The position numbers and the translations under genes are program-made. Below are positions 3,019-50,743 of a stretch of DNA of 50,743 bases, in pieces (position 1 is the stretch's first letter; each line of letters opens with the position of its first letter). Where the stretch lies: the IMG/VR virus record IMGVR_UViG_3300025308_000004, positions 1 through 50,743 of that record. One strand, given 5' to 3'. Origin of the DNA: a virus. Below the pieces are notes generated by a model, which did not search any database, was not told the origin of the DNA, and saw only the letters and a program-made list of their open reading frames with translations.

Positions 3019-3177
3019 ATGAACTGGCTGACCAACATCGACCGCATGGCTGACAACGCACAACGCGCACGCTGCCACATCGCCGGGCTGGTATCGCACC
3101 ACATCCGCAGCATGGCGCAACTCAGGCGTGATCGGGCGGCGGAGAAATTGAGTAAACAACAAGGGGAAAGAAAATGA
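3019..3177 (+). CDS. small basic protein, 52 aa
   Basis: Short frame between the zinc-ribbon gene and bet, coupled to bet by an ATGA overlap (3174-3177). Rich in Arg, His and Lys with the charged tail RRDRAAEKLSKQQGERK. Reading frame is tight on both sides, which supports it despite its size. No family recognised. Confidence 0.6.
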   Translation: MNWLTNIDRMADNAQRARCHIAGLVSHHIRSMAQLRRDRAAEKLSKQQGERK

Positions 3178-4046
3178 GCAAGCAAGAAAACAGTATGCAG
3201 CTTATCCGCAAGGAATCGGCGCTGCCAGCGATGACAATGAACGAGGATGAACTTATCAACATCCTGCGCAACAGCCTGTATCCAGGAGCGCAGACGGATT
3301 CAATCAAGATGGTTCTAGGGTATTGCCAAGCTGCCGGCCTAGACCCAATGCAGAAGCCCGTCCACATCGTTCCAATCTACGACGGCAAGCTGAAAGTGAT
3401 GCGCGACGTGGTGATGCCCGGCATCGGCCTGTACCGCACCCAGATGTCTCGCACCGGGCAATGCGCTGGAGTGACCGAGCCAGAGTTCGGAGAAGACAGA
3501 ACCGAAAAGCTTGGCGGGTTTGAGATTACCTATCCGGTATCTTGCAAGGTGATCGTCAAGCGCATATTACCGAACGGCGCTATCGCAGAATACGCGGCGA
3601 CCGAGCGATGGAAAGAAAACTACGCGATGAAAGGCGGCGCGGAAAAGAGCATCGCTCCAAACGCCATGTGGACAAAGCGCCCGTATGCCCAGCTTGCTAA
3701 GTGTGCAGAGGCACAGGCACTGCGCAAGGCATTCCCAGAACTTGGTTCAGCACCGACCGCCGACGAAATGGAAGGCAAGGAATTCGACACCCCGATGGTC
3801 GATACATGTTCTCGCGAAACGAAGCCAGAGCGACCTACCATAACCATCGAAGTATTGCTTGATAAGCACACAATCGACGTAATCAACGCGGATGGCGTAG
3901 TCACCAAGTTCAGCACCAAGAGCAAGGTACAGAACGGCGACGGCACGGCGCAGGGCGTAATCGACTTCCTTTCGGCGAAGTACATTTTGCCGACTGAGGT
4001 GATCGAGGAAATCCAATCTTGGGAACAGAAAGGCGGTGCGCAATGA
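3174..4046 (+). CDS. bet: Bet/RecT-family single-strand annealing protein
   Basis: 290 aa, close to lambda Bet and its relatives. Diagnostic stretches include CQAAGLDPMQKPVHIVPIYD near residues 51-70, VVMPGIGLYRTQ near 78-89, and WTKRPYAQLAKCAEAQALR followed by KAFPELG. RecT/Bet proteins bind single-stranded DNA left by a 5'-3' exonuclease and anneal it to complementary strands. The partner exonuclease is the next gene, overlapping by ATGA. A C-terminal 90-residue region is unrelated to the core and may bind other proteins. Confidence 0.93.
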   Translation: MSKQENSMQLIRKESALPAMTMNEDELINILRNSLYPGAQTDSIKMVLGYCQAAGLDPMQKPVHIVPIYDGKLKVMRDVVMPGIGLYRTQMSRTGQCAGVTEPEFGEDRTEKLGGFEITYPVSCKVIVKRILPNGAIAEYAATERWKENYAMKGGAEKSIAPNAMWTKRPYAQLAKCAEAQALRKAFPELGSAPTADEMEGKEFDTPMVDTCSRETKPERPTITIEVLLDKHTIDVINADGVVTKFSTKSKVQNGDGTAQGVIDFLSAKYILPTEVIEEIQSWEQKGGAQ

Positions 4047-5713
4047 GAATCATCAGTGGATTGGTGCAGGGCAGCGATGAATGGATAAAGCTTCGCGCCG
4101 GATACTTCACGGCATCGGAAGCGCCGGCAATGCTGGGCCTGTCTAAATATAAGGCGAGGGCCGCTCTGGTGCGCGAGAAGGCAACCGGTATCGTGCCTGA
4201 AGTCGATTCCGCCACGCAGCGCCGTTTTGACGATGGGCATGCGGCCGAAGAGAAAATGCGCGCATGGGCCGAGAATTACATCTGTGACGACCTATATCCG
4301 GTGGTCGGCGTGTATACGATCAGCGGCCTGCCGCTGCTGAGCAGCTTCGACGGCCTGACGATGGACGGGAAAACAGCTTGGGAAAACAAGCTCTGGAATG
4401 AGGGATTCGCTGAACAGGTTCGCAACGGAATCGTCCCTGATACCCATTGGCCGCAACTCGAACAGCAATTGCTTATTTCCGGTGCAGACTATGTTCTGTT
4501 CACAGTCGGCGACGGCGAGAACGCTGAACCTCTGGAGTATCGAGGCTTGCCCGAGCGGCGCGAACGCTTGCTGGCCGGGTGGGCGCAGTTCGCTGCCGAT
4601 GTTCTGGAGTACCAGCGCAAGCTGGCCGCTGGCGAGATCGAACAGCCGAAGGAAGCGCCCAAGGCCGAGACAATCAAGGCGCTGCCGTCCGTGTTTGTTC
4701 AGGCGACCGGCATGGTGACTGCATCCAATCTGTCCGAGTTCAAGGAAGCGGCCACGACGTTCATCGCCGGGATCAAGACTGAGCTTGTTTGCGATCAGGA
4801 CTTCGCCGACGCCGAATCTACAGTTAAATTCTGCAAGGATGCCGAATCGAACTTGGAAGCCACCAAGGCCAGCGTACTCGCGCAGATGTCCACCGTTGAC
4901 GAAGTTGTGCGTACGCTTGACCACATCGCCGCTCAGCTTCGCGACAAGCGGCTGATGCTGGATAAGTTGGTGAAGTCGGAAAAGGAAACGCGCAAGCTGG
5001 CAATCGTCACCAAGGCCGGGAACGATTTCGCTGCGCATGTCGAATCGCTCGAAGCTGAAACAAAACCGATCCGGCTTGTTCTTGTGCGGCCTGATTTCGC
5101 CGGCGCGATCAAGGGAATGAAAAAGCTGTCGGCCATGCAAGAGGCGGTCGATACAGCGCTGCGTGATGGAAAATTTTCCGCCGACCAATCGGCAAAAGAC
5201 GTGCGCGAAAAGCTCGCATGGTGCAAAGAGTTATCGGTTGGTTACGGCTTCCTATTCTCCGACCTGTCGCAGCTCATTGCCAATAACGGCATGGAGGCAT
5301 TCCAAGCGATTGTTACCGGTCGAATCGACAAGCACAAGGTGGATGAAGCCGCGAAGGCTGAAGAGCAGCGGGCAGCAATACAGGCCGAGGAAGAGCGCAA
5401 AGCCACCGCCAAGGCGCAAGCGGAAGCCGAGGCTATCATTGCCGCAGAACGGGCAAAGCAGGCGGAGGAACAAGCCAAGGCGCGTGCCGAAGCCGTAGCG
5501 ATGGCGAACCGTGAGCAGCAAGCAGCGCAAGAGCGCACAGAGAACAACCCCAAGAGCGAAGCCGTCACGCATGACGGGGCGCGGCCTTCTGTTGTGCCGC
5601 AGCGCCCGACCGACAAAGAGATCATCGCCGCACTTGCCGAGACGTTCAACGTACCACGCGAAACGGTAGTTGATTGGCTGATGAATATCAGCTTCGCCTC
5701 AGTAGAACAATAA
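4043..5713 (+). CDS. YqaJ-type exonuclease with long C-terminal extension
   Basis: ATG at 4043 overlaps the bet stop (ATGA) and is chosen over an upstream in-frame start. Residues 1-200 match the YqaJ/lambda-exonuclease fold: QGSDEWIKLRAGYFTASEA near 9-27, SFDGLT, and a metal-binding core at AWENKL. This enzyme resects double-stranded DNA for Bet. The remaining about 350 residues are alpha-helical with an Ala/Glu/Lys coiled coil (about 430-500) and a helical end IIAALAETFNVPRETVVDWL that looks like a small helix-turn-helix. Typical phage exonucleases are 200-330 aa, so this 556-aa protein is a fusion. Confidence 0.85.
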   Translation: MRIISGLVQGSDEWIKLRAGYFTASEAPAMLGLSKYKARAALVREKATGIVPEVDSATQRRFDDGHAAEEKMRAWAENYICDDLYPVVGVYTISGLPLLSSFDGLTMDGKTAWENKLWNEGFAEQVRNGIVPDTHWPQLEQQLLISGADYVLFTVGDGENAEPLEYRGLPERRERLLAGWAQFAADVLEYQRKLAAGEIEQPKEAPKAETIKALPSVFVQATGMVTASNLSEFKEAATTFIAGIKTELVCDQDFADAESTVKFCKDAESNLEATKASVLAQMSTVDEVVRTLDHIAAQLRDKRLMLDKLVKSEKETRKLAIVTKAGNDFAAHVESLEAETKPIRLVLVRPDFAGAIKGMKKLSAMQEAVDTALRDGKFSADQSAKDVREKLAWCKELSVGYGFLFSDLSQLIANNGMEAFQAIVTGRIDKHKVDEAAKAEEQRAAIQAEEERKATAKAQAEAEAIIAAERAKQAEEQAKARAEAVAMANREQQAAQERTENNPKSEAVTHDGARPSVVPQRPTDKEIIAALAETFNVPRETVVDWLMNISFASVEQ

Positions 5714-38960: not shown

Positions 38961-39351
38961 AATACTCAATCGCCTCCTCTGCAAGAATCCTAACCTCGGT
39001 CGCGCCCAGCGTTCTTTTGGCAGATTCACGCAGGCTATCAACAAAATCGCGGCCATACAGATCGATCATTTTCAGCGTGTATTCTCTGATATGAAACTCT
39101 TTTCGGAACGTGTTGCACCCGCAACAGGCCGGTTTCAAGTTCTCTTCAAGCCATCGCGATGCCTTTTTCCCGCGCTCGATATAGTGCGCGCAATGTGCGT
39201 CTTTCCAGTGCAATCCGGTATCGCATGATATGCAGGTCACATATCCGGCGTGGTCTGCGTATTTCTGCCTGATGTATAGGCTCGCCAGTCGGTCTGCCTT
39301 TTCGATCAGCGTAGACAGTTTTACGCGCTTTGATTTGGTCTTTTGTTTCAC
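38941..39351 (-). CDS. ninG: NinG/Rap recombination protein
   Basis: 136 aa; GTG start overlapping the upstream stop (GTGA). CISCDTGLHWKDAHCAHYI and PACCGCNTFRKEFHI carry the NinG zinc-binding His/Cys residues. In lambda, NinG (Rap) is a structure-specific nuclease acting on recombination junctions alongside the Red system, here represented by Bet and the YqaJ exonuclease. Confidence 0.88.
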   Translation of the reverse strand: MKQKTKSKRVKLSTLIEKADRLASLYIRQKYADHAGYVTCISCDTGLHWKDAHCAHYIERGKKASRWLEENLKPACCGCNTFRKEFHIREYTLKMIDLYGRDFVDSLRESAKRTLGATEVRILAEEAIEYYGKSSE

Positions 39352-39548
39352 TCTATTTCCTTCGCCATGAATCTATCAGAATACACACATACAGTCACGC
39401 CAGAAACATACCGCGCGCGCTCAACTGGAGTTTTTGCGGCTCTGCATGATCTATATCCTTGGCGTGCCATTTCCTTTTCTACCTTCGAATCGCCAATGTA
39501 TGCGTTGAGGCAGTTTCGGCAGATTTTATCCTGTGAGCTTGCGGTCAT
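39348..39548 (-). CDS. small cysteine protein, 66 aa
   Basis: CRNCLNAYIG and CRAAKTPVERARYVSG give a possible zinc site; ends with a basic/acidic tail. Coupled to ninG. It has no clear ribosome-binding site, consistent with a start very near a promoter (TATAGT at 39572-39567). Confidence 0.55.
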   Translation of the reverse strand: MTASSQDKICRNCLNAYIGDSKVEKEMARQGYRSCRAAKTPVERARYVSGVTVCVYSDRFMAKEIE

Positions 39549-39582
39549 TTTTATGTGTAAAACTCGACTATAGCCAGATTAG

Positions 39583-39598
39583 GCACCTGCGCAGGTGC
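39583..39598. promoter_or_regulatory. 16-bp perfect palindrome
   Basis: GCACCTGCGCAGGTGC. It overlaps the position of a -35 for the minus-strand -10-like TATAGT (39572-39567), so it could be an operator. It also lies where the left arm of an attC would be for the first cassette boundary (GTTAGGA at 39608), but no R'' box is present to its left. Confidence 0.45.
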
Positions 39599-39621
39599 AT
39601 ATCACACGTTAGGAGACTTAT

Positions 39622-39945
39622 ATGGACGATATGAAGGTTCTCGAAAAGGATGGCGTAATCGACCATGACGCAATAGAAACAATAGTTCGCGTACAGGTGT
39701 TAGAAGCCATCGTTTCGTTGCAGTCCAACGCGTTGGTGGCGGCCCTATCTCTTTTTGAAGACGCAGAGCGAACTCGGCAGCTGAAGGGAATGGAAGATCG
39801 GCTAAAAGAGATTGAGGCTGATTACAAGACGATTTACATGACATCGCTATCTCCAATGGATTCTGATTATTCGGCAGAGTTGATTCAAGAAGTTCTCTCT
39901 GGTTATTTTGCTCAAATGCGTCGATCACTTGGCATCCACTCCTAA
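39622..39945 (+). CDS. cassette gene, hypothetical helical protein, 107 aa
   Basis: Starts 14 bases after the cassette boundary; the boundary GTTAGGAG itself supplies the GGAG Shine-Dalgarno, and the stop TAA lies in the R'' box of attC A. Both features are typical for integron cassettes. The protein is helical (VQVLEAIVSLQSNALVAALSLFEDAERTRQLKGM). Function unknown. An opposing frame of similar length is a shadow. Confidence 0.75.
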   Translation: MDDMKVLEKDGVIDHDAIETIVRVQVLEAIVSLQSNALVAALSLFEDAERTRQLKGMEDRLKEIEADYKTIYMTSLSPMDSDYSAELIQEVLSGYFAQMRRSLGIHS

Positions 39946-39999
39946 CCTTACGTTCAACCCGGACCCCGCGAAGCGGGGCCGGTTACTTCCACGTTATGC
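39940..39999 (+). repeat. attC site A
   Basis: R'' TCCTAAC, spacer, L'' GTTCAACCCGG, stem CCCCGC/GCGGGG, L' CCGGTTAC, spacer, R' GTTATGC. The left arm has unpaired C and A bases relative to the right, the extrahelical signature that sets left-to-right orientation. Confidence 0.85.
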
Positions 40000-40003
40000 G
40001 TCT

Positions 40004-40240
40004 TCATGCCGCGCGCCCCTGCATGAATTCCTGAATGGTGCTCGGCTCCATGTATTCCAACGCGTGTGTCGGGTGGTACAGCCCTGACCTGCGACGGCCC
40101 GCTATGCGGATGCGCAAATACTTCCCCTTTGACCCCGTGATTGTTCCTGGAATGCCGACACCATCGTCCAGCATCACCCTCACATCACCGCCGCGCTTTG
40201 CTGGCACGCCATAGGTCTTGCGTATATATTCCATGCTCAT
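40004..40240 (-). CDS. cassette-2 gene, hypothetical basic protein, 78 aa
   Basis: ACGGAG before ATG. GDVRVMLDDGVGIPGTITGSKG...LRIRIAGRRRSGLYHPTHALEY suggests a small beta-barrel. Antisense to its attC but co-directional with the phage operon; ends five bases before attC A. Between it and attC B (40241-40386) is a 146-bp stretch with CACTCCAAG/CTTGGAGTG arms (40276-40284, 40317-40325) and no gene. Confidence 0.65.
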   Translation of the reverse strand: MSMEYIRKTYGVPAKRGGDVRVMLDDGVGIPGTITGSKGKYLRIRIAGRRRSGLYHPTHALEYMEPSTIQEFMQGRAA

Positions 40241-40386
40241 TATTGTTTCTCCGTATCACCGGCCGCCGAACCCGACACTCCAAGCGCCCTCCGGCATCTG
40301 CACTCTATTCGCCTGTCTTGGAGTGCAGCATCCGCACTGCCCTGCTATTTGAGGGTGAGGCTACCAATTTCTCCACCACTGCCATT

Positions 40387-40436
40387 GTTCAACCAATGCC
40401 TAAAGCCGCGCAAGGCACCTTAGCTACACGTTAGAA
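40387..40436 (+). repeat. attC site B (less canonical)
   Basis: R'' GTTCAAC, arms CCTAAAGCC and GGCACCTTAG, R' GTTAGAA. Arms pair imperfectly; one extra C on the left agrees with the orientation of the others. Weakest of the five in this cluster. Confidence 0.6.
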
Positions 40437-40604
40437 CGCATCGTATCGCGTCATGTACAGCACGCCATTATACAGATACCAGACCGCAGTTATTTGGCCG
40501 TGTCGCTCAGTGATCTTCTTTCCGAACAACCGAAGTTTCAGCATGAACCAGAAACTTGGATCGAATGTGCTCTTGCACGGAAACTGGAAATATTGTTCGT
40601 TCAT
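40431..40604 (-). CDS. cassette-3 gene, hypothetical protein, 57 aa
   Basis: GGAGGAAGAA precedes ATG at 40604. Aromatic and basic (FWFMLKLRLFGKKITERHGQ; AVWYLYNGVLYMTRYDAF). Its TAA (40433-40431) lies in the R' box of attC B, read from the other strand. Unknown function. Confidence 0.6.
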   Translation of the reverse strand: MNEQYFQFPCKSTFDPSFWFMLKLRLFGKKITERHGQITAVWYLYNGVLYMTRYDAF

Positions 40605-40623
40605 TTCTTCCTCCACAAATGCG

Positions 40624-40683
40624 CCCTAACCATACGGTCAAGGCGGACTCCGCTACTCTCCGCCGCTTACCTTTTCGTTAGCC
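40624..40683 (+). repeat. attC site C
   Basis: R'' CCCTAAC, 5-nt spacer, L'' GGTCAAGGCGG, L' CCGCCGCTTACC, 5-nt spacer, R' GTTAGCC. GGT-C-AAG against GGTAAG gives the extrahelical C on the left arm. Confidence 0.85.
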
Positions 40684-40973
40684 GGCAACACTCCGAGCGC
40701 CTGCGCTTGCTCAACCGTCACCAACATTTGAGGGGGGCTTCGGCTGTGCAACGCCACAAGTCTGTCCACGTAGGGCTTCGCCGCCTTGGCGTAGCTCTCT
40801 TGCAGCATCGCCAAGGTTTCTCGCAGGTAGCGTTCCTCAGATGCGTCCGCGCAATCGCGGAAGGCATAGCGGCGCTCGCACGGCGTCGGCGGGCTGTCGT
40901 CCGGGTGGCAGGTGCATTGCCGGCTAACAGTTACGTCAACCGGACCTTGCGCCGGAATCAGCGTTTCACTCAT
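40653..40973 (-). CDS. cassette-4 gene, cysteine-rich phage-type protein, 106 aa
   Basis: AGGAGGTAAATC before ATG. N-terminal CTCHPDDSPPTPCERRYAFRDC resembles a motif in small phage proteins. The start codon and ribosome-binding site lie in the loop of attC D, and the last about ten codons (ANEKVSGGE) come from attC C, so the gene spans two recombination sites. Antisense to attC. Confidence 0.68.
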   Translation of the reverse strand: MSETLIPAQGPVDVTVSRQCTCHPDDSPPTPCERRYAFRDCADASEERYLRETLAMLQESYAKAAKPYVDRLVALHSRSPPQMLVTVEQAQALGVLPANEKVSGGE

Positions 40974-41020
40974 GATTTACCTCCTGTGCCGGCGCAAGGC
41001 CGGTTACGTCAGCGTTGGGC
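40922..41020 (+). repeat. attC site D (long)
   Basis: R'' GGCTAAC, L'' CGTCAACCGG, L' CCGGTTACG, R' GTTGGGC. The inner stem CCTTGCGCCGG/CCGGCGCAAGG is perfect; the left arm has extra C and A. The 42-nt loop (about 40954-40990) carries the end of one gene and the start of the next. Confidence 0.88.
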
Positions 41021-41271
41021 GTCAGGGCATCGCGAGCAAATTGATTCCGCTGCGCTCCTGTCATGTATTCGCTATCCTCTGTTTCGCACAATTGCACCAG
41101 GACGGCTTCGCGCAGCCGGTATATTTCTTCTCTCGCATCTTTCAGTAACACCACACCATCGCGCTGCAACATGTGCGGCGATAGTTGGCGAAGATGCGCT
41201 TCGATTCTTTCGAGCACGCCCAACCCTACGGTCGAGCCGGACTCCTCACTACGCTTCGCTTCGTTCGTCAC
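40966..41271 (-). CDS. cassette-5 gene, hypothetical helical protein, 101 aa
   Basis: GTG start with GGAGGTGAGC upstream, both inside attC E; stop inside the attC D loop, overlapping the next start by 8 bp. Helical segment LERIEAHLRQLSPHMLQRDGVVLLKDAREEIYRLRE is typical of small phage accessory proteins. Antisense to attC. Confidence 0.62.
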   Translation of the reverse strand: MTNEAKRSEESGSTVGLGVLERIEAHLRQLSPHMLQRDGVVLLKDAREEIYRLREAVLVQLCETEDSEYMTGAQRNQFARDALTPNADVTGLAPAQEVNHE

Positions 41272-41292
41272 CGCTCACCTCCATCGTTCGGC
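41218..41292 (+). repeat. attC site E
   Basis: R'' GCCCAAC, 5-nt spacer, L'' GGTCGAGC, L' GCTCACC, R' GTTCGGC. GGT-C-GAGC against GGTGAGC places the extrahelical C on the left. Last site of cluster 1. Confidence 0.8.
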
Positions 41293-41294
41293 AC

Positions 41295-41323
41295 GTGTTC
41301 CCCACTCGCGTGGGGATGAACCG
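41295..41323 (+). CRISPR. solitary type I-E-like CRISPR repeat
   Basis: 29 bp starting GTGTTCCCC, with the 6-bp hairpin CCCCAC/GTGGGG around TCGC, ending GGGGATGAACCG. Length, stem and 3' handle match known type I-E repeats. There is no second copy at the 61-bp spacing or elsewhere in the window, no spacer array and no cas genes. It starts two bases after attC E and lies 6 bp from the stop of the next minus-strand gene. A plus-strand transcript would mimic a crRNA repeat. Confidence 0.85.
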
Positions 41324-47052: not shown

Positions 47053-47130
47053 TTACTCAAGCGTCCGACCAAGGACGACGCCGAAAGTTCAGCGCAAAAG
47101 GATTATAGCGATAGCTGCGACATTTGCAAC

Positions 47131-47159
47131 AAAAAAAAGACCTGCCACTAGGACAGGTC
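47131..47159 (-). terminator. Rho-independent terminator
   Basis: GACCTG/CAGGTC arms (47154-47159 and 47139-47144) with a 9-nt loop, then eight T on the minus strand (47138-47131). Ends the transcript of the structured RNA region upstream of rha. Confidence 0.82.
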
Positions 47160-47394
47160 AAAGCCTCGGGGGAGGAGTGTAGGCTGCTGGAATAGTGGCG
47201 CGGTAGGCAAATGCCGTTCGACGTACCTTCCACTTATAGCCAGCTTGGCTTGCTGTTTTAGGCCGGGAGCCACCCCTAATACGCCTGCTATTATTCCAAC
47301 AAGGAAGGGATTGCACAACTCGCCCGCTGCAACGGCTTATAAGTACTAAGCGCAGCAATCCCTATCTTGTTAGCCCTGATTGCTCAGGGGTGTT
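47160..47394 (-). ncRNA. candidate C4-like antisense RNA upstream of antirepressor
   Basis: About 235 nt between a -10 TATAAT (47406-47401) and a terminator (47159-47131), with several stems: CCCTGA/TCAGGG, GGGATTGC/GCAATCCC (47307-47314 with 47355-47362) and GGAATA/TATTCC. Two overlapping open frames (47158-47358, 47148-47318) lack start signals. In P1/P7, C4 RNA lies in the same transcript just before ant. AGCTGGCT (in the RNA) is complementary to AGCCAGCT in the rha leader hairpin loop. The name rests on position and structure, not on a match to Rfam. Confidence 0.5.
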
Positions 47395-47400
47395 TTATGG

Positions 47401-47419: not shown

Positions 47420-47437
47420 GTCTAACTTACGTTAGAT
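47420..47437 (+). repeat. truncated attC stub at the left edge of cluster 2
   Basis: GTCTAAC and GTTAGAT (consensus R'' and R' boxes) separated by only four bases, without L boxes or stem. Could be a deletion product or the insertion point of the cluster. Confidence 0.6.
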
Positions 47438-47775
47438 TTTTCAACCAAGGAGGTTTTATGAGTGATTCCAATATCAAAACAATCCACGGCCTTGTTCTCG
47501 TTCAGGGCGCTTTGCTTCAAGCTATGGCGTGGAAAGAAACGAGAAAATCTGATCTTCTTTACGAATTCTCTCAGCAGTACATACCACTTATTCAAGGTCT
47601 CAATAAGAACAAAGAGCCAGATAAAGAACTTATAGCAGCGGTCGAATTGGCGTATAAATCTATATCCGCACAACTCCCCAAAAACCACAGATCGAGCATT
47701 TCTTAAATAACACCATGCCGCAGCTCTATCTGCCGCCGCTTGGTTTCTTAAAAACTGTTCTCTCGTATAAGTCAT
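47422..47775 (-). CDS. possible antisense gene starting MTYTREQFLRNQ
   Basis: Minus-strand frame of 117 aa whose first 24 residues (MTYTREQFLRNQAAADRAAA...) lie outside the plus-strand gene and match the second cassette's minus frame with mostly synonymous base differences, the sign of selection on this frame. The rest overlaps the plus-strand gene and may not be meaningful. Ribosome-binding site GAAGGGG. Confidence 0.3.
   Translation of the reverse strand: MTYTREQFLRNQAAADRAAAWCYLRNARSVVFGELCGYRFIRQFDRCYKFFIWLFVLIETLNKWYVLLREFVKKIRFSRFFPRHSLKQSALNENKAVDCFDIGITHKTSLVEKSNVS
47458..47706 (+). CDS. cassette gene, paralogue 1, 82 aa
   Basis: AAGGAGG before ATG, 27 bases after the boundary GTTAGAT. 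SNIKTIHGLVLVQGALLQA, EFSQQYIPLIQGLNK and KEPDKELIAAVELAYKSISAQL are shared with the next cassette's gene at 48091. Helical; function unknown. Duplicated cassettes with diverged paralogues are common in integrons. Confidence 0.72.
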   Translation: MSDSNIKTIHGLVLVQGALLQAMAWKETRKSDLLYEFSQQYIPLIQGLNKNKEPDKELIAAVELAYKSISAQLPKNHRSSIS

Positions 47776-48007: not shown

Positions 48008-48070
48008 ATCTAACCCGCCGTTCAACCCGGACTCCGCAAGAGCGCGGAGCCGGTTAACTCTACGTTAGAT
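48008..48070 (+). repeat. attC site G
   Basis: R'' ATCTAAC, CCGCC, L'' GTTCAACCCGG, stem CTCCGC/GCGGAG, L' CCGGTTAAC, TCTAC, R' GTTAGAT. Extra C, C and A in the left arm. Near-consensus. Confidence 0.92.
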
Positions 48071-48405
48071 TTTTCAACCAAGGAGGTATCATGGAATCCA
48101 GCATCAAAACAATCCACGGTCTTGTTCTCGTTCAGGGTGCATTGCTTCAAGCTATTGCTTGGTCTAAAGCGAAAAATACTGAAATTGCTTTTGAGTTTTC
48201 GCAACAGTACATGCCAATTATTCAGGGTCTCAATAAGGAAAAAGAGCCAGATAAAGAACTTATATCCGCTGTGGAAAGGGCGCACAAAACCATCTCCGCA
48301 CAACTTCCTAAAAGATAAATATCTTGTGTCTCTCACATAACACCAAGATGAGGCCTTTTCTGCTGCTGCTTGATTTCTTAAAAACTGTTCGCGTGTGTAT
48401 GTCAT
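48022..48405 (-). CDS. possible antisense gene, paralogue of the one at 47422
   Basis: Minus frame starting MTYTREQFLRNQAAAEKASS; AAAGGAC upstream. First 24 codons differ from the paralogue mostly at third positions. Overlaps the plus-strand gene at 48091-48318 downstream. Confidence 0.3.
   Translation of the reverse strand: MTYTREQFLRNQAAAEKASSWCYVRDTRYLSFRKLCGDGFVRPFHSGYKFFIWLFFLIETLNNWHVLLRKLKSNFSIFRFRPSNSLKQCTLNENKTVDCFDAGFHDTSLVEKSNVELTGSALLRSPG
48091..48318 (+). CDS. cassette gene, paralogue 2, 75 aa
   Basis: AAGGAGG before ATG, same 5' sequence as the first paralogue. About 65% identical to it over 70 residues by eye, with conservative changes; ends earlier (LPKR). The two cassettes share the minus-strand MTYTREQF region downstream. 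Function unknown. Confidence 0.72.
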   Translation: MESSIKTIHGLVLVQGALLQAIAWSKAKNTEIAFEFSQQYMPIIQGLNKEKEPDKELISAVERAHKTISAQLPKR

Positions 48406-48426
48406 AGTGTTTAGTCCTTTCAAAAA

Positions 48427-48489
48427 ATCTAACCTGCCGTTCAACCAGACCGCCCAACAGCGGGGCGGCTGGTTAACTCTACGTTAGGC
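48427..48489 (+). repeat. attC site H
   Basis: R'' ATCTAAC, CTGCC, L'' GTTCAACCAG, stem CCGCC/GGCGG, L' CTGGTTAAC, TCTAC, R' GTTAGGC. Extra C and A on the left arm. Very close to consensus. Confidence 0.93.
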
Positions 48490-48825
48490 ACATGCGCGCC
48501 CGGTCTCTAATGCTTCGGCATGACCTCTGTATGTCGCAGCCGTGGCTTCGTAGTGACTTTGCAAATTACGCAGTGCCTGTGCAAGCGTCCTTCCGTTTGC
48601 AGTGTGCAGCCACACTGCGCGCTTACCGAACCCGGCGCTTTTTGCCTCGTACCGGTCAAAATCGTTTTGTTCCCGCCTTACAATTTGTAAAGTCGAAAGG
48701 CGATTAAACCCGCTCGATTGAATCCCCGTCGCGGACAGGTAATCTGGATTACTAGATTTATGGAGTGTCCAGTTATAGCCTGGCATTATTTTTTCAATCT
48801 CTGCTCTAAATTCTGTTGCCTTCAT
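48484..48825 (-). CDS. cassette gene, hypothetical protein, 113 aa
   Basis: GAGAGGTAGGCC before ATG. Its TAA comes from the GTTAGGC box of attC H. KATEFRAEIEKIMPGYNWTLHKSS and the helix RTLAQALRNLQSHYEATAATYRGHAEAL are notable; no family recognised. Antisense to attC. Confidence 0.62.
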   Translation of the reverse strand: MKATEFRAEIEKIMPGYNWTLHKSSNPDYLSATGIQSSGFNRLSTLQIVRREQNDFDRYEAKSAGFGKRAVWLHTANGRTLAQALRNLQSHYEATAATYRGHAEALETGRACA

Positions 48826-48855
48826 GGCCTACCTCTCTGTTATTTAGTAAATACA

Positions 48856-48921
48856 GCCTAACCCAACGGTGAAGAGGGATTGAACGATAAGGCCGTTCAA
48901 CCCCTTACCTCTACGTTGGGC
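48856..48921 (+). repeat. attC site I
   Basis: R'' GCCTAAC, CCAAC, L'' GGTGAAGAGGG, stem TTGAACG/CGTTCAA, L' CCCTTACC, TCTAC, R' GTTGGGC. Extrahelical base is G rather than C. Confidence 0.88.
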
Positions 48922-49475
48922 ACCCACCCCGGAATGTTCAGGCGTACCAGAGTGCGCTTGCAATCCTTCGCCACTGGCACGGCTTCGTGCAAGAAGGTGA
49001 GCGTATGCCCCGCCCATACCTTGCTTGGTTCAATGTCAGTGCAAAGCATCCCGCTCACGTCAATGTGCGCGCAGTCCCCTCCGCTTCTTGGCGCATCGTC
49101 GTACTCTCCGAGGTATGCATAGCTTGCCATCACGTCCGTCGCCAATATCAGCGCCTCTGGCTCGTAGGCTTCGCCTATTACATGCCTGCCGCCTCTGTGT
49201 CCGCCGCCGTGTGCGTGTAGCGCCTTATTCCAATATCCGTCCACATGCACGCCGCCCCTGCGGTGCGATGCGCCAGCCTTTACTTCAGCCTGATCTATCA
49301 TCAAGAAAATCGAACCGGGCGCATCTATCCCATCAAGCATTTGGTCAATCGTTCCCTGCCACCGCTCAAGGTCGTTTGGCAATCCGCCGCTCTTCGTAAA
49401 TTCGCGCATGTAAACGCGCTCGCCGAGGAATTGCGGAAATTTAACTGCCCCGCGCTGTTGTACGTTGCTTTGCAT
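48897..49475 (-). CDS. cassette gene, possible 2OG-Fe(II) oxygenase-like protein, 192 aa
   Basis: ATG at 49475 after AAAAGGAGAATCAA; the longer frame to 49577 would start inside attC J. GGVHVDGYW (His77, Asp79) and LHEAVPVAKDCKRTLVRLN (His163, Arg178) suggest a facial triad plus the basic residue binding 2-oxoglutarate. The last residues (NVEVRG) come from attC I. Oxygenase assignment is by motif spacing only. Antisense to attC. Confidence 0.5.
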   Translation of the reverse strand: MQSNVQQRGAVKFPQFLGERVYMREFTKSGGLPNDLERWQGTIDQMLDGIDAPGSIFLMIDQAEVKAGASHRRGGVHVDGYWNKALHAHGGGHRGGRHVIGEAYEPEALILATDVMASYAYLGEYDDAPRSGGDCAHIDVSGMLCTDIEPSKVWAGHTLTFLHEAVPVAKDCKRTLVRLNIPGWVPNVEVRG

Positions 49476-49501
49476 TTGATTCTCCTTTTCAAAGTTTGGT
49501 T

Positions 49502-49564
49502 GCCCAACCCATCGGTGAAGCGGAGCCGCCAAAAGCGGCGTCCCGCTTACCTCAAGCGTTAGAT
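49502..49564 (+). repeat. attC site J
   Basis: R'' GCCCAAC, CCATC, L'' GGTGAAGCGG, stem GCCGCC/GCGGCG, L' CCGCTTACC, R' GTTAGAT. Right end of cluster 2. Confidence 0.9.
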
Positions 49565-49857
49565 GACTCGCGCTCAAGCCGTGCCCGCGCTTCCCATGCT
49601 AGCCCGTCGTCAGTCAAGCTTGCCGCCATCGCTGCGCAACATTCAGAGCACCAGCGGTAGCTCATCAGTTCCCCGTCAAACACCGCCGCCAGCAGTCGCA
49701 CGCGCTCGCCTGGCACAATCTCTTGCCGACACATGCCACAGGTTCCGCCCTTGCGCGCCGTGCCGATCTTGTCCTTCAGTACCTTGTCGCTTGGGCTGCC
49801 AAAGTCGCCCTCGAATGGGTTGGTTTTCAGGCACTCGGCTTCGTCAAACGTCGTCAT
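49552..49857 (-). CDS. zinc-binding protein at the cassette edge, 101 aa
   Basis: Two cysteine pairs CGMC (40-43) and CSECC (70-74) around a beta sheet (EIVPGERVRLLAAVF). ATGA overlap with the next upstream gene. The last codons (ESSNA, stop) lie within attC J, so the cluster was inserted at, or captured with, this gene. Confidence 0.62.
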   Translation of the reverse strand: MTTFDEAECLKTNPFEGDFGSPSDKVLKDKIGTARKGGTCGMCRQEIVPGERVRLLAAVFDGELMSYRWCSECCAAMAASLTDDGLAWEARARLERESSNA

Positions 49858-50060
49858 CTAACCCTCCATTCTTTCGGGATTGGAATCCGCGCAGCCTTCA
49901 TGCGCCTGATGATGTTAGCCGATTGCTTATCTGTAAGCTCTTCCGGCAGATACCAGATTGCATTGTCTGCGCGCTCGCCAGCCCATCCCAATTTTTTAGC
50001 AGCTTGGCGCAATGATACTCCGTCAGCCGTTAGGTGTTTAATCAAGTCTGCTTTTTTCAT
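49854..50060 (-). CDS. small helix-turn-helix regulator, 68 aa, leaderless
   Basis: ADGVSLRQAAKKLGWAGERADNAIWYL looks like a helix-turn-helix; basic tail RRMKAARIPIPKEWRVR. Its ATG lies seven bases from a perfect -10 (50072-50067), so the mRNA probably begins at the start codon, like lambda cI from PRM. First gene of the long minus-strand arm; a candidate early regulator. Confidence 0.65.
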   Translation of the reverse strand: MKKADLIKHLTADGVSLRQAAKKLGWAGERADNAIWYLPEELTDKQSANIIRRMKAARIPIPKEWRVR

Positions 50061-50468: not shown

Positions 50469-50581
50469 CGATTGAGTAATACGGATGGCGGCCACCCGAA
50501 CCAAACCGCCCGACCAAAGGATGTTCGACAGATTCCTTTCCAGCCTTGGACGGCACTTATTAACCAAATTGGAGATAGCAA

Positions 50582-50743
50582 ATGATACTGATAGACGGAG
50601 TTTGTTTCAAAACAATCGAAAGCGCAGCAAGTGCGCTTGTCGTGGCAAAGAAAGTTGAAATCTACAACCTGCCGCTGGTCACCGCGCTGCCTGATTTGCC
50701 AGCAGCGACTGATGTGCGCTTCTACAACATGCCGCTGGTCACC
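50582..50743 (+). CDS. 20-residue-repeat protein, N-terminal part
   Basis: ATG at 50582 with GGAG seven bases before. Encodes a 24-residue non-repeat start (MILIDGVCFKTIESAASALV...) and then the repeat units. Runs off the window end on a codon boundary and continues, after superposing 50664 onto base 1, to the stop at 446. True length depends on repeat copy number. Confidence 0.8.
   Translation, partial: MILIDGVCFKTIESAASALVVAKKVEIYNLPLVTALPDLPAATDVRFYNMPLVT

Follow-up and report, generated by a model that had tools for sequence, protein, structure and literature searches.

Two probable integron-type cassette arrays with mostly inverted genes in a tailed phage lacking an integron integrase

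Integrons have so far been studied as bacterial devices. CALINs have already been reported in virulent and uncharacterised phages, and IntI1 recombined five of six tested phage attC sites (Qi et al. 2023, PMC9892861). These phage CALINs are attC clusters in phage genomes from which an integrase is absent, and in this they resemble the locus described here. Sedentary chromosomal integrons of Beta- and Gammaproteobacteria, such as those of Gallionella and Methylobacter, share with it the attC type, cassettes of a few hundred bp and the pairing of each R'' box with the R' box of its own cassette.

The stretch of DNA analysed here, called the window, is the whole 50,743-nt virus record IMGVR_UViG_3300025308_000004. 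We consider it probable that its two attC clusters are resident integron-type cassette arrays of a tailed phage without an integron integrase, drawing mainly on a phage-adapted cassette pool. The terminase large subunit is 64.6% identical to that of Burkholderia phage Magia, and the window encodes portal, capsid and DNA-ejection proteins, NinG, a KilAC/Rha regulator as well as RecT and a RecE-like exonuclease (3174-5713). Two related records, G001 (G1; DnaC-like ATPase 91% identical to that of the window) and G002 (G2; terminase 93% identical), have backbone regions in common with it. No isolated phage with the DNA of the window or its attC sites was found by megablast and short blastn. The record starts (1-446) and ends (50581-50743) within a single gene built of 60-nt (20-aa) repeats, and therefore it may be circular and broken within this gene. 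At the corresponding position, G001 terminates in another repeat gene, of the SQHASSG type. The intergenic region upstream of the terminal repeat gene (50470-50572) is 93-96% identical in the three phages, a conservation exceeding that of most genes.

attC sites and cassettes of the window

The window was scanned, with filters off, using a covariance model (R1) that had been trained on 36 attC sites from bacterial arrays and resistance plasmids and on no viral sequence. The scan yielded eight attC sites with E values between 1e-13 and 1e-5, every one of them on the plus strand, at 39940, 40624, 40922 and 41218 in cluster 1 and at 48008, 48427, 48856 and 49502 in cluster 2 (48008-49564; E 1e-13 to 6e-9). 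The best score outside the attC sites was 12.9 bits (E 0.5), which is noise level, and nine attC-free stretches of control phages including the nearest isolated relatives (about 230-242 kb, some of them overlapping) gave no match at E<=1. An independent motif scanner found six sites scoring at least 14, compared with 0.3 expected in dinucleotide shuffles. Because the motif scan exceeds the shuffles and the control phages are free of R1 matches, a chance origin of the attC cluster is excluded, and the initial annotation was right to regard four of its five sites as true attC sites and not as chance repeats. Both R1 and the motif scan revealed RYYYAAC and GTTRRRY boxes, the arrangement R''-L''-loop-L'-R' and an extrahelical base in L''. 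With four R1-supported attC sites in each cluster and no IntI, the two clusters are CALINs. A search of Rfam gave no usable match. R1 missed the attC sites of P12002L reported by Qi et al. and gave only weak matches in TJE1, and thus it is biased towards one attC type.

Folded as ssDNA, the bottom strands of six of the eight sites (39940, 40922, 48008, 48427, 48856 and 49502) form attC hairpins that are better than those of shuffled sequences (z -2.5 to -6.1). The sites 40624 (z -0.7) and 41218 (z +1.0) fold no better than shuffles, although R and L boxes are paired in the best structure of each. The initial annotation had proposed five attC sites in cluster 1. Four of them are matched by R1, and two of these (39940 and 40922) also beat the shuffles. 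The fifth, at 40387, has no R1 match and folds like its shuffles (z +0.6). Its R' box at 40430 is nevertheless plausible as the edge of a cassette, since it agrees with the next R'' box (GCGCCCTAAC) at eight of ten bases. The features of cluster 1 are as follows.

39348..39548, minus strand: 66-aa gene, left border of cluster 1; homologues border the arrays of both relatives
39560..39614, plus strand: left boundary, degenerate attC-like site ending in the R' box GTTAGGA (39608-39614)
39622..39945, plus strand: cassette 1 ORF, 107 aa, sense to attC (ORF list; RBS GGAG)
39940..39999, plus strand: attC 1 (R1 44.7 bits, E 4e-9; fold z -2.5)
40004..40240, minus strand: cassette 2 ORF, 78 aa, antisense to attC (phrog_2730, PHROG E 1e-12)
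40386..40436, plus strand: site 2, degenerate at best; R' at 40430 appears usable
40431..40616, minus strand: cassette 3 ORF, 61 aa, antisense (ORF list)
40624..40683, plus strand: attC 3 (R1 43.6 bits, E 8e-9)
40653..40973, minus strand: cassette 4 ORF, 106 aa, antisense (sequence, ORF list)
40922..41020, plus strand: attC 4, 99 nt with a long loop (R1 31.5 bits, E 9e-6; fold z -4.6)
40966..41271, minus strand: cassette 5 ORF, up to 101 aa (start codon uncertain), antisense (ORF list)
41218..41292, plus strand: attC 5, right end of cluster 1 (R1 50.8 bits, E 1e-10)

Cassette 1 ends in CTCCTAAC, the exact complement of its start GTTAGGAG, and its ORF has no Pfam or PHROG match. The cassette 3 ORF, likewise without a PHROG match, has its stop codon within the R' box (GTTA read as TAAC). 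The RBS AGGAGG and the ATG of the cassette 4 ORF lie inside the loop of attC 4, where the start of this ORF overlaps the stop of the cassette 5 ORF (ATGAGTGA), and the R'' box of attC 4 matches the R' box of its own cassette over 12 nt. Immediately beyond the final R' box of cluster 1 lies, at 41295-41323, one exact copy of a type I-E-like CRISPR repeat (GTGTTCCCCACTCGCGTGGGGATGAACCG). No second copy was found in the window or the fetched viral loci, and the repeat is absent from 369 gammaproteobacterial genomes (the class of a Methylobacter MAG). This solitary repeat unit could be an RNA anti-CRISPR. Cluster 2 comprises the following features.

47433..47439, plus strand: left R' box (GTTAGAT) of cluster 2 (sequence)
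47458..47706, plus strand: cassette 6 ORF, 82 aa, sense (paralogous to that of cassette 7)
48008..48070, plus strand: attC 6 (R1 62.4 bits, E 1e-13)
48091..48318, plus strand: cassette 7 ORF, 75 aa, sense (start-site call)
48427..48489, plus strand: attC 7 (R1 44.1 bits, E 6e-9)
48484..48825, minus strand: cassette 8 ORF, 113 aa, antisense (R' box contains its stop codon)
48856..48921, plus strand: attC 8 (R1 44.1 bits, E 6e-9; fold z -6.1)
48897..49475, minus strand: cassette 9 ORF, 192 aa, antisense (phrog_8970, PHROG E 1e-50)
49502..49564, plus strand: attC 9 (R1 50 bits, E 2e-10)
49552..49857, minus strand: cassette 10 ORF, 101 aa, antisense (phrog_19515, PHROG E 7e-19)
49854..49863, plus strand: remainder of the R'' box (GTCATCTAAC) from a last attC that is truncated; 10 nt complement the R' box at 49558

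At the left R' box of this cluster (47433..47439), GTTAGATTTTT complements AAAAATCTAAC at the end of cassette 6. The adjacent sense cassettes 6 and 7 are paralogous (47457-47756 versus 48087-48386, 77% DNA identity over 300 nt). In cassette 9, a sense start-site call at 49005-49220 was rejected since the PHROG-supported 192-aa antisense gene contradicts it. To the left of the cluster, the intergenic stretch 47125-47395 contains stems whose arms vary yet stay paired in one or both relatives, and a terminator-like hairpin follows these stems. The stretch is a candidate structured RNA: in a comparison of three sequences only, 18 pairs carry changes on both sides, and the net covariation term is not favourable.

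Gene orientation, cargo and turnover in related phages

Gene orientation was called from start sites (Shine-Dalgarno sequence plus ATG). A collection scan for one attC sequence type showed that the cassette genes of 31 bacterial loci of that type are all sense (51 sense, none antisense), whereas terminase-bearing phage records, a subset chosen to limit IMG/VR records that may be bacterial fragments, contain 38 antisense and 5 sense genes, a confident call being missing for about a third of the viral cassettes (38:5 versus 0:51, Fisher p 3e-21, with cassettes that are not fully independent). Moreover, and independently of the start calls, when the longest ORF of each cassette is taken in each direction, the antisense ORFs match 37 PHROG families in total and the sense ORFs none. 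It is by these PHROG matches and the start-site calls that orientation is resolved, unlike by a naive count of longest ORFs, which gives 38 sense versus 35 antisense in the TerL-bearing records. In the window, seven of the ten cassettes are antisense and three are sense, and in the two relatives and other array-bearing phages most cassette genes also run against their attC site, many of them belonging to phage protein families. Thus, the typical bacterial layout, a gene co-oriented with its attC site, is not what these phages display. As flipping an array leaves the orientation of a gene to its own attC site unchanged, the inverted cassettes must have been built differently.

The start codon of inverted cassettes lies a median of 31 nt outside R'' or, as in cassette 4 of the window, inside the attC loop. 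In 29 of 59 antisense viral cassettes, the stop codon is a TAA read from the R' box. The array and the flanking phage genes run the same way in the window, in G1 and in one array of G2; over all viral loci, a crude test of co-direction gave 19 versus 11 (p 0.2). Three cassette genes of other phage loci (L094:9055-9282, L100:937-1224 and L024:8523-8795) seem to start upstream of the attC arm, which would then be translated in them (SGLNDGLGG or SELSVGL motifs near the N terminus).

The antisense products of the window in phage families belong to phrog_2730, phrog_8970 and phrog_19515. The cassette 2 ORF (phrog_2730) is matched by 79 phage records in tblastn and the cassette 9 ORF (phrog_8970) has homologues in 45 phage records, and two of the antisense products were traced to phages of, for instance, Serratia, Rhizobium, Pseudomonas and Mycobacterium. 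The arrays of other phages encode DNA methyltransferases, a Mom-like modification protein, PAPS reductase and RNA ligase, and the Thoeris inhibitor Tad3 is encoded by an antisense cassette of another phage (L076:12600-13037; PF25185, E 4e-39). Almost no similarity was found between the cargo and the fetched bacterial arrays.

The three phages carry an array at the same locus, beside the homologous 66-aa gene (L024:9169-9369 in G1 and L028:13132-13362 in G2), where the DNA of the window and G1 is 80% identical over 39357-39613. However, their cassettes differ, and G002 carries a further array elsewhere. The array of the window therefore looks like a resident, phage-adapted one. Alternatively, the phage might have acquired part of a bacterial integron array in a single capture and carry it as a passenger, an incidental CALIN. 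The attC sites closely resemble bacterial ones, for instance those of Gallionella and Methylobacter, and this is how known phage CALINs have been interpreted (PMC9892861). Different content at one locus of three related phages, mostly inverted genes from many phage families and a cargo unlike that of the fetched bacterial arrays make a single capture unlikely. Nor do the inverted genes, their phage families and the varying content of the shared locus support the ordinary host-integron cassettes that the initial annotation implied.

Cassette boundaries and the recombinase

In integron arrays, a cassette begins with TTRRRY, and this 5' end supplies the R' box of the attC site before it. Real cassette units should therefore show a match of R'' to the R' box at the far end of the same cassette rather than to the R' box of the same hairpin. 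Across 18 cassettes of the window and the two relatives, R'' agrees with the own-cassette R' at a mean of 6.78 of 7 bases, compared with 5.06 of 7 for the own-hairpin R', and 2000 random R''/R' pairings gave a mean of 5.26 and a maximum of 5.94. Pairing is perfect within the own cassette in 15 of the 18 cases and within the own hairpin in none. The complementarity often extends over 8-12 nt, for example between TTGCCGGCTAAC and GTTAGCCGGCAA, and bacterial arrays behave likewise (6.50 own-cassette versus 5.55 own-hairpin). The units thus have the make-up of gene cassettes, with an R' core at one end, their own attC site at the other and an R'' box complementary to their own R'. This cassette-wise pairing is the signature of units inserted by an integrase-type crossover at G^TT, and together with the R1 matches it bears out the earlier view that attC sites bound cassettes in an integrase-free phage. 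Moreover, the homology between the window and G001 breaks inside the R' box at 39608, and unrelated phages hold related cassettes whose homology begins at R'.

These boundaries also bear on whether homologous recombination by the phage itself shuffles cassettes between attC repeats, with no integron integrase now involved. The phage does encode RecT and a RecE-like exonuclease, and attC repeats offer short homologies. However, an integrase crossover predicts the pairing of R'' with its own R' and the homology breaks at G^TT, and the arms of neighbouring attC sites differ so widely that little homology is left; this route is distinctly unlikely. It is very unlikely that the hairpins only resemble attC sites and serve the phage in regulation, as terminators or translation leaders. 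Start codons and RBSs beside or inside the hairpins and stops in the R' box would suit such elements, but in a fixed hairpin R'' and R' would be expected to remain complementary to each other, whereas perfect pairing is seen in none of 18 hairpins as opposed to 15 of 18 cassettes, and the asymmetry of the extrahelical base and the covariance scores match true attC sites. A chimeric assembly or bacterial contamination can be dismissed as extremely improbable: the three close records are all metagenomic and not closed, but array and phage gene synteny recur in these separate records and the complete published phage MW202573 has the same layout.

No tyrosine recombinase (PF00589, TIGR02249) was found in the window, G001 or G002, nor in any array record with a phrog_2-type terminase, and those re-tested contained no IntI. 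The intI gene of a complete integron is missing from the window and both relatives. The initial annotation had stated that no integrase is encoded, which holds for tyrosine recombinases. Among 14 bacterial genomes that share this attC type, 11 have a full IntI. The likeliest recombinase, and our best inference, is therefore an integron integrase supplied in trans by the host, as had been suggested earlier. For the major capsid protein, two distant matches only (best 38%) were found in 201 genomes of the order of the Methylobacter MAG mentioned above.

Proposed explanation and comparison with known systems

In the resident arrays that we favour, each unit would be bounded on the left by an R' box (G^TTRRRY) and end on the right in an attC site of its own, and units would be inserted or exchanged by a crossover at G^TT. 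The footprint of this crossover is visible in the boxes, and it would most likely be made by an integron integrase of the host, supplied in trans and using the attC bottom strand in its folded form. The pool would be mainly phage-adapted in that genes point against their own attC site, start beside or inside it and often end on the TAA from the R' box of the left boundary. Inversion would bring the cassette genes of the window into the direction of the adjoining phage genes. By analogy with the cargo of other phages' arrays, the array may be a plug-in site at which small accessory and counter-defence genes are swapped between phages.

We also lean slightly towards a broader reading, in which phages keep their own, largely separate pool of inverted cassettes that hops between unrelated phages via host integrases and delivers counter-defence genes. 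If this is true, the two pools would be held separate by the inversion, as both a bacterial cassette in a phage array and a phage cassette entering an attI site would land antisense to the promoter. Integrases would then serve viruses as well as their hosts, and phage accessory genes would gain a site-specific route of exchange. Phage attC arrays would also be a place to look for new counter-defence genes, as those of other phages already hold methyltransferases, a Mom-like protein and Tad3. Any phage collection can be screened for the inversion, which makes a simple signature.

While phage CALINs are known, the inverted phage cassette pool is, within the open-access literature searched, a new point: no earlier description of inverted phage cassettes was found there. 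The cassettes of TJE1 and PH101 are described as co-oriented in the way most typical of bacteria, whereas those of the window are mostly inverted, and inversion, cassette-wise R''/R' pairing and turnover at the same locus among related phages are not described in the accessible text (Qi et al. 2023, PMC9892861). Sedentary chromosomal integrons usually have IntI (11 of 14) and sense genes (51:0), in contrast to the window with its absent IntI and mostly antisense genes. A counterpart with the same layout is phage MW202573 from Manatee Spring, which is complete and published and is reported to have multiple ORFs between adjacent attC sites (Qi et al. 2023, PMC9892861). It is a different phage with different cassettes and a portal and coat annotated as P22-like, but its four attC sites lie on one strand and, in an annotation made by others, the CDSs there lie on the other strand.
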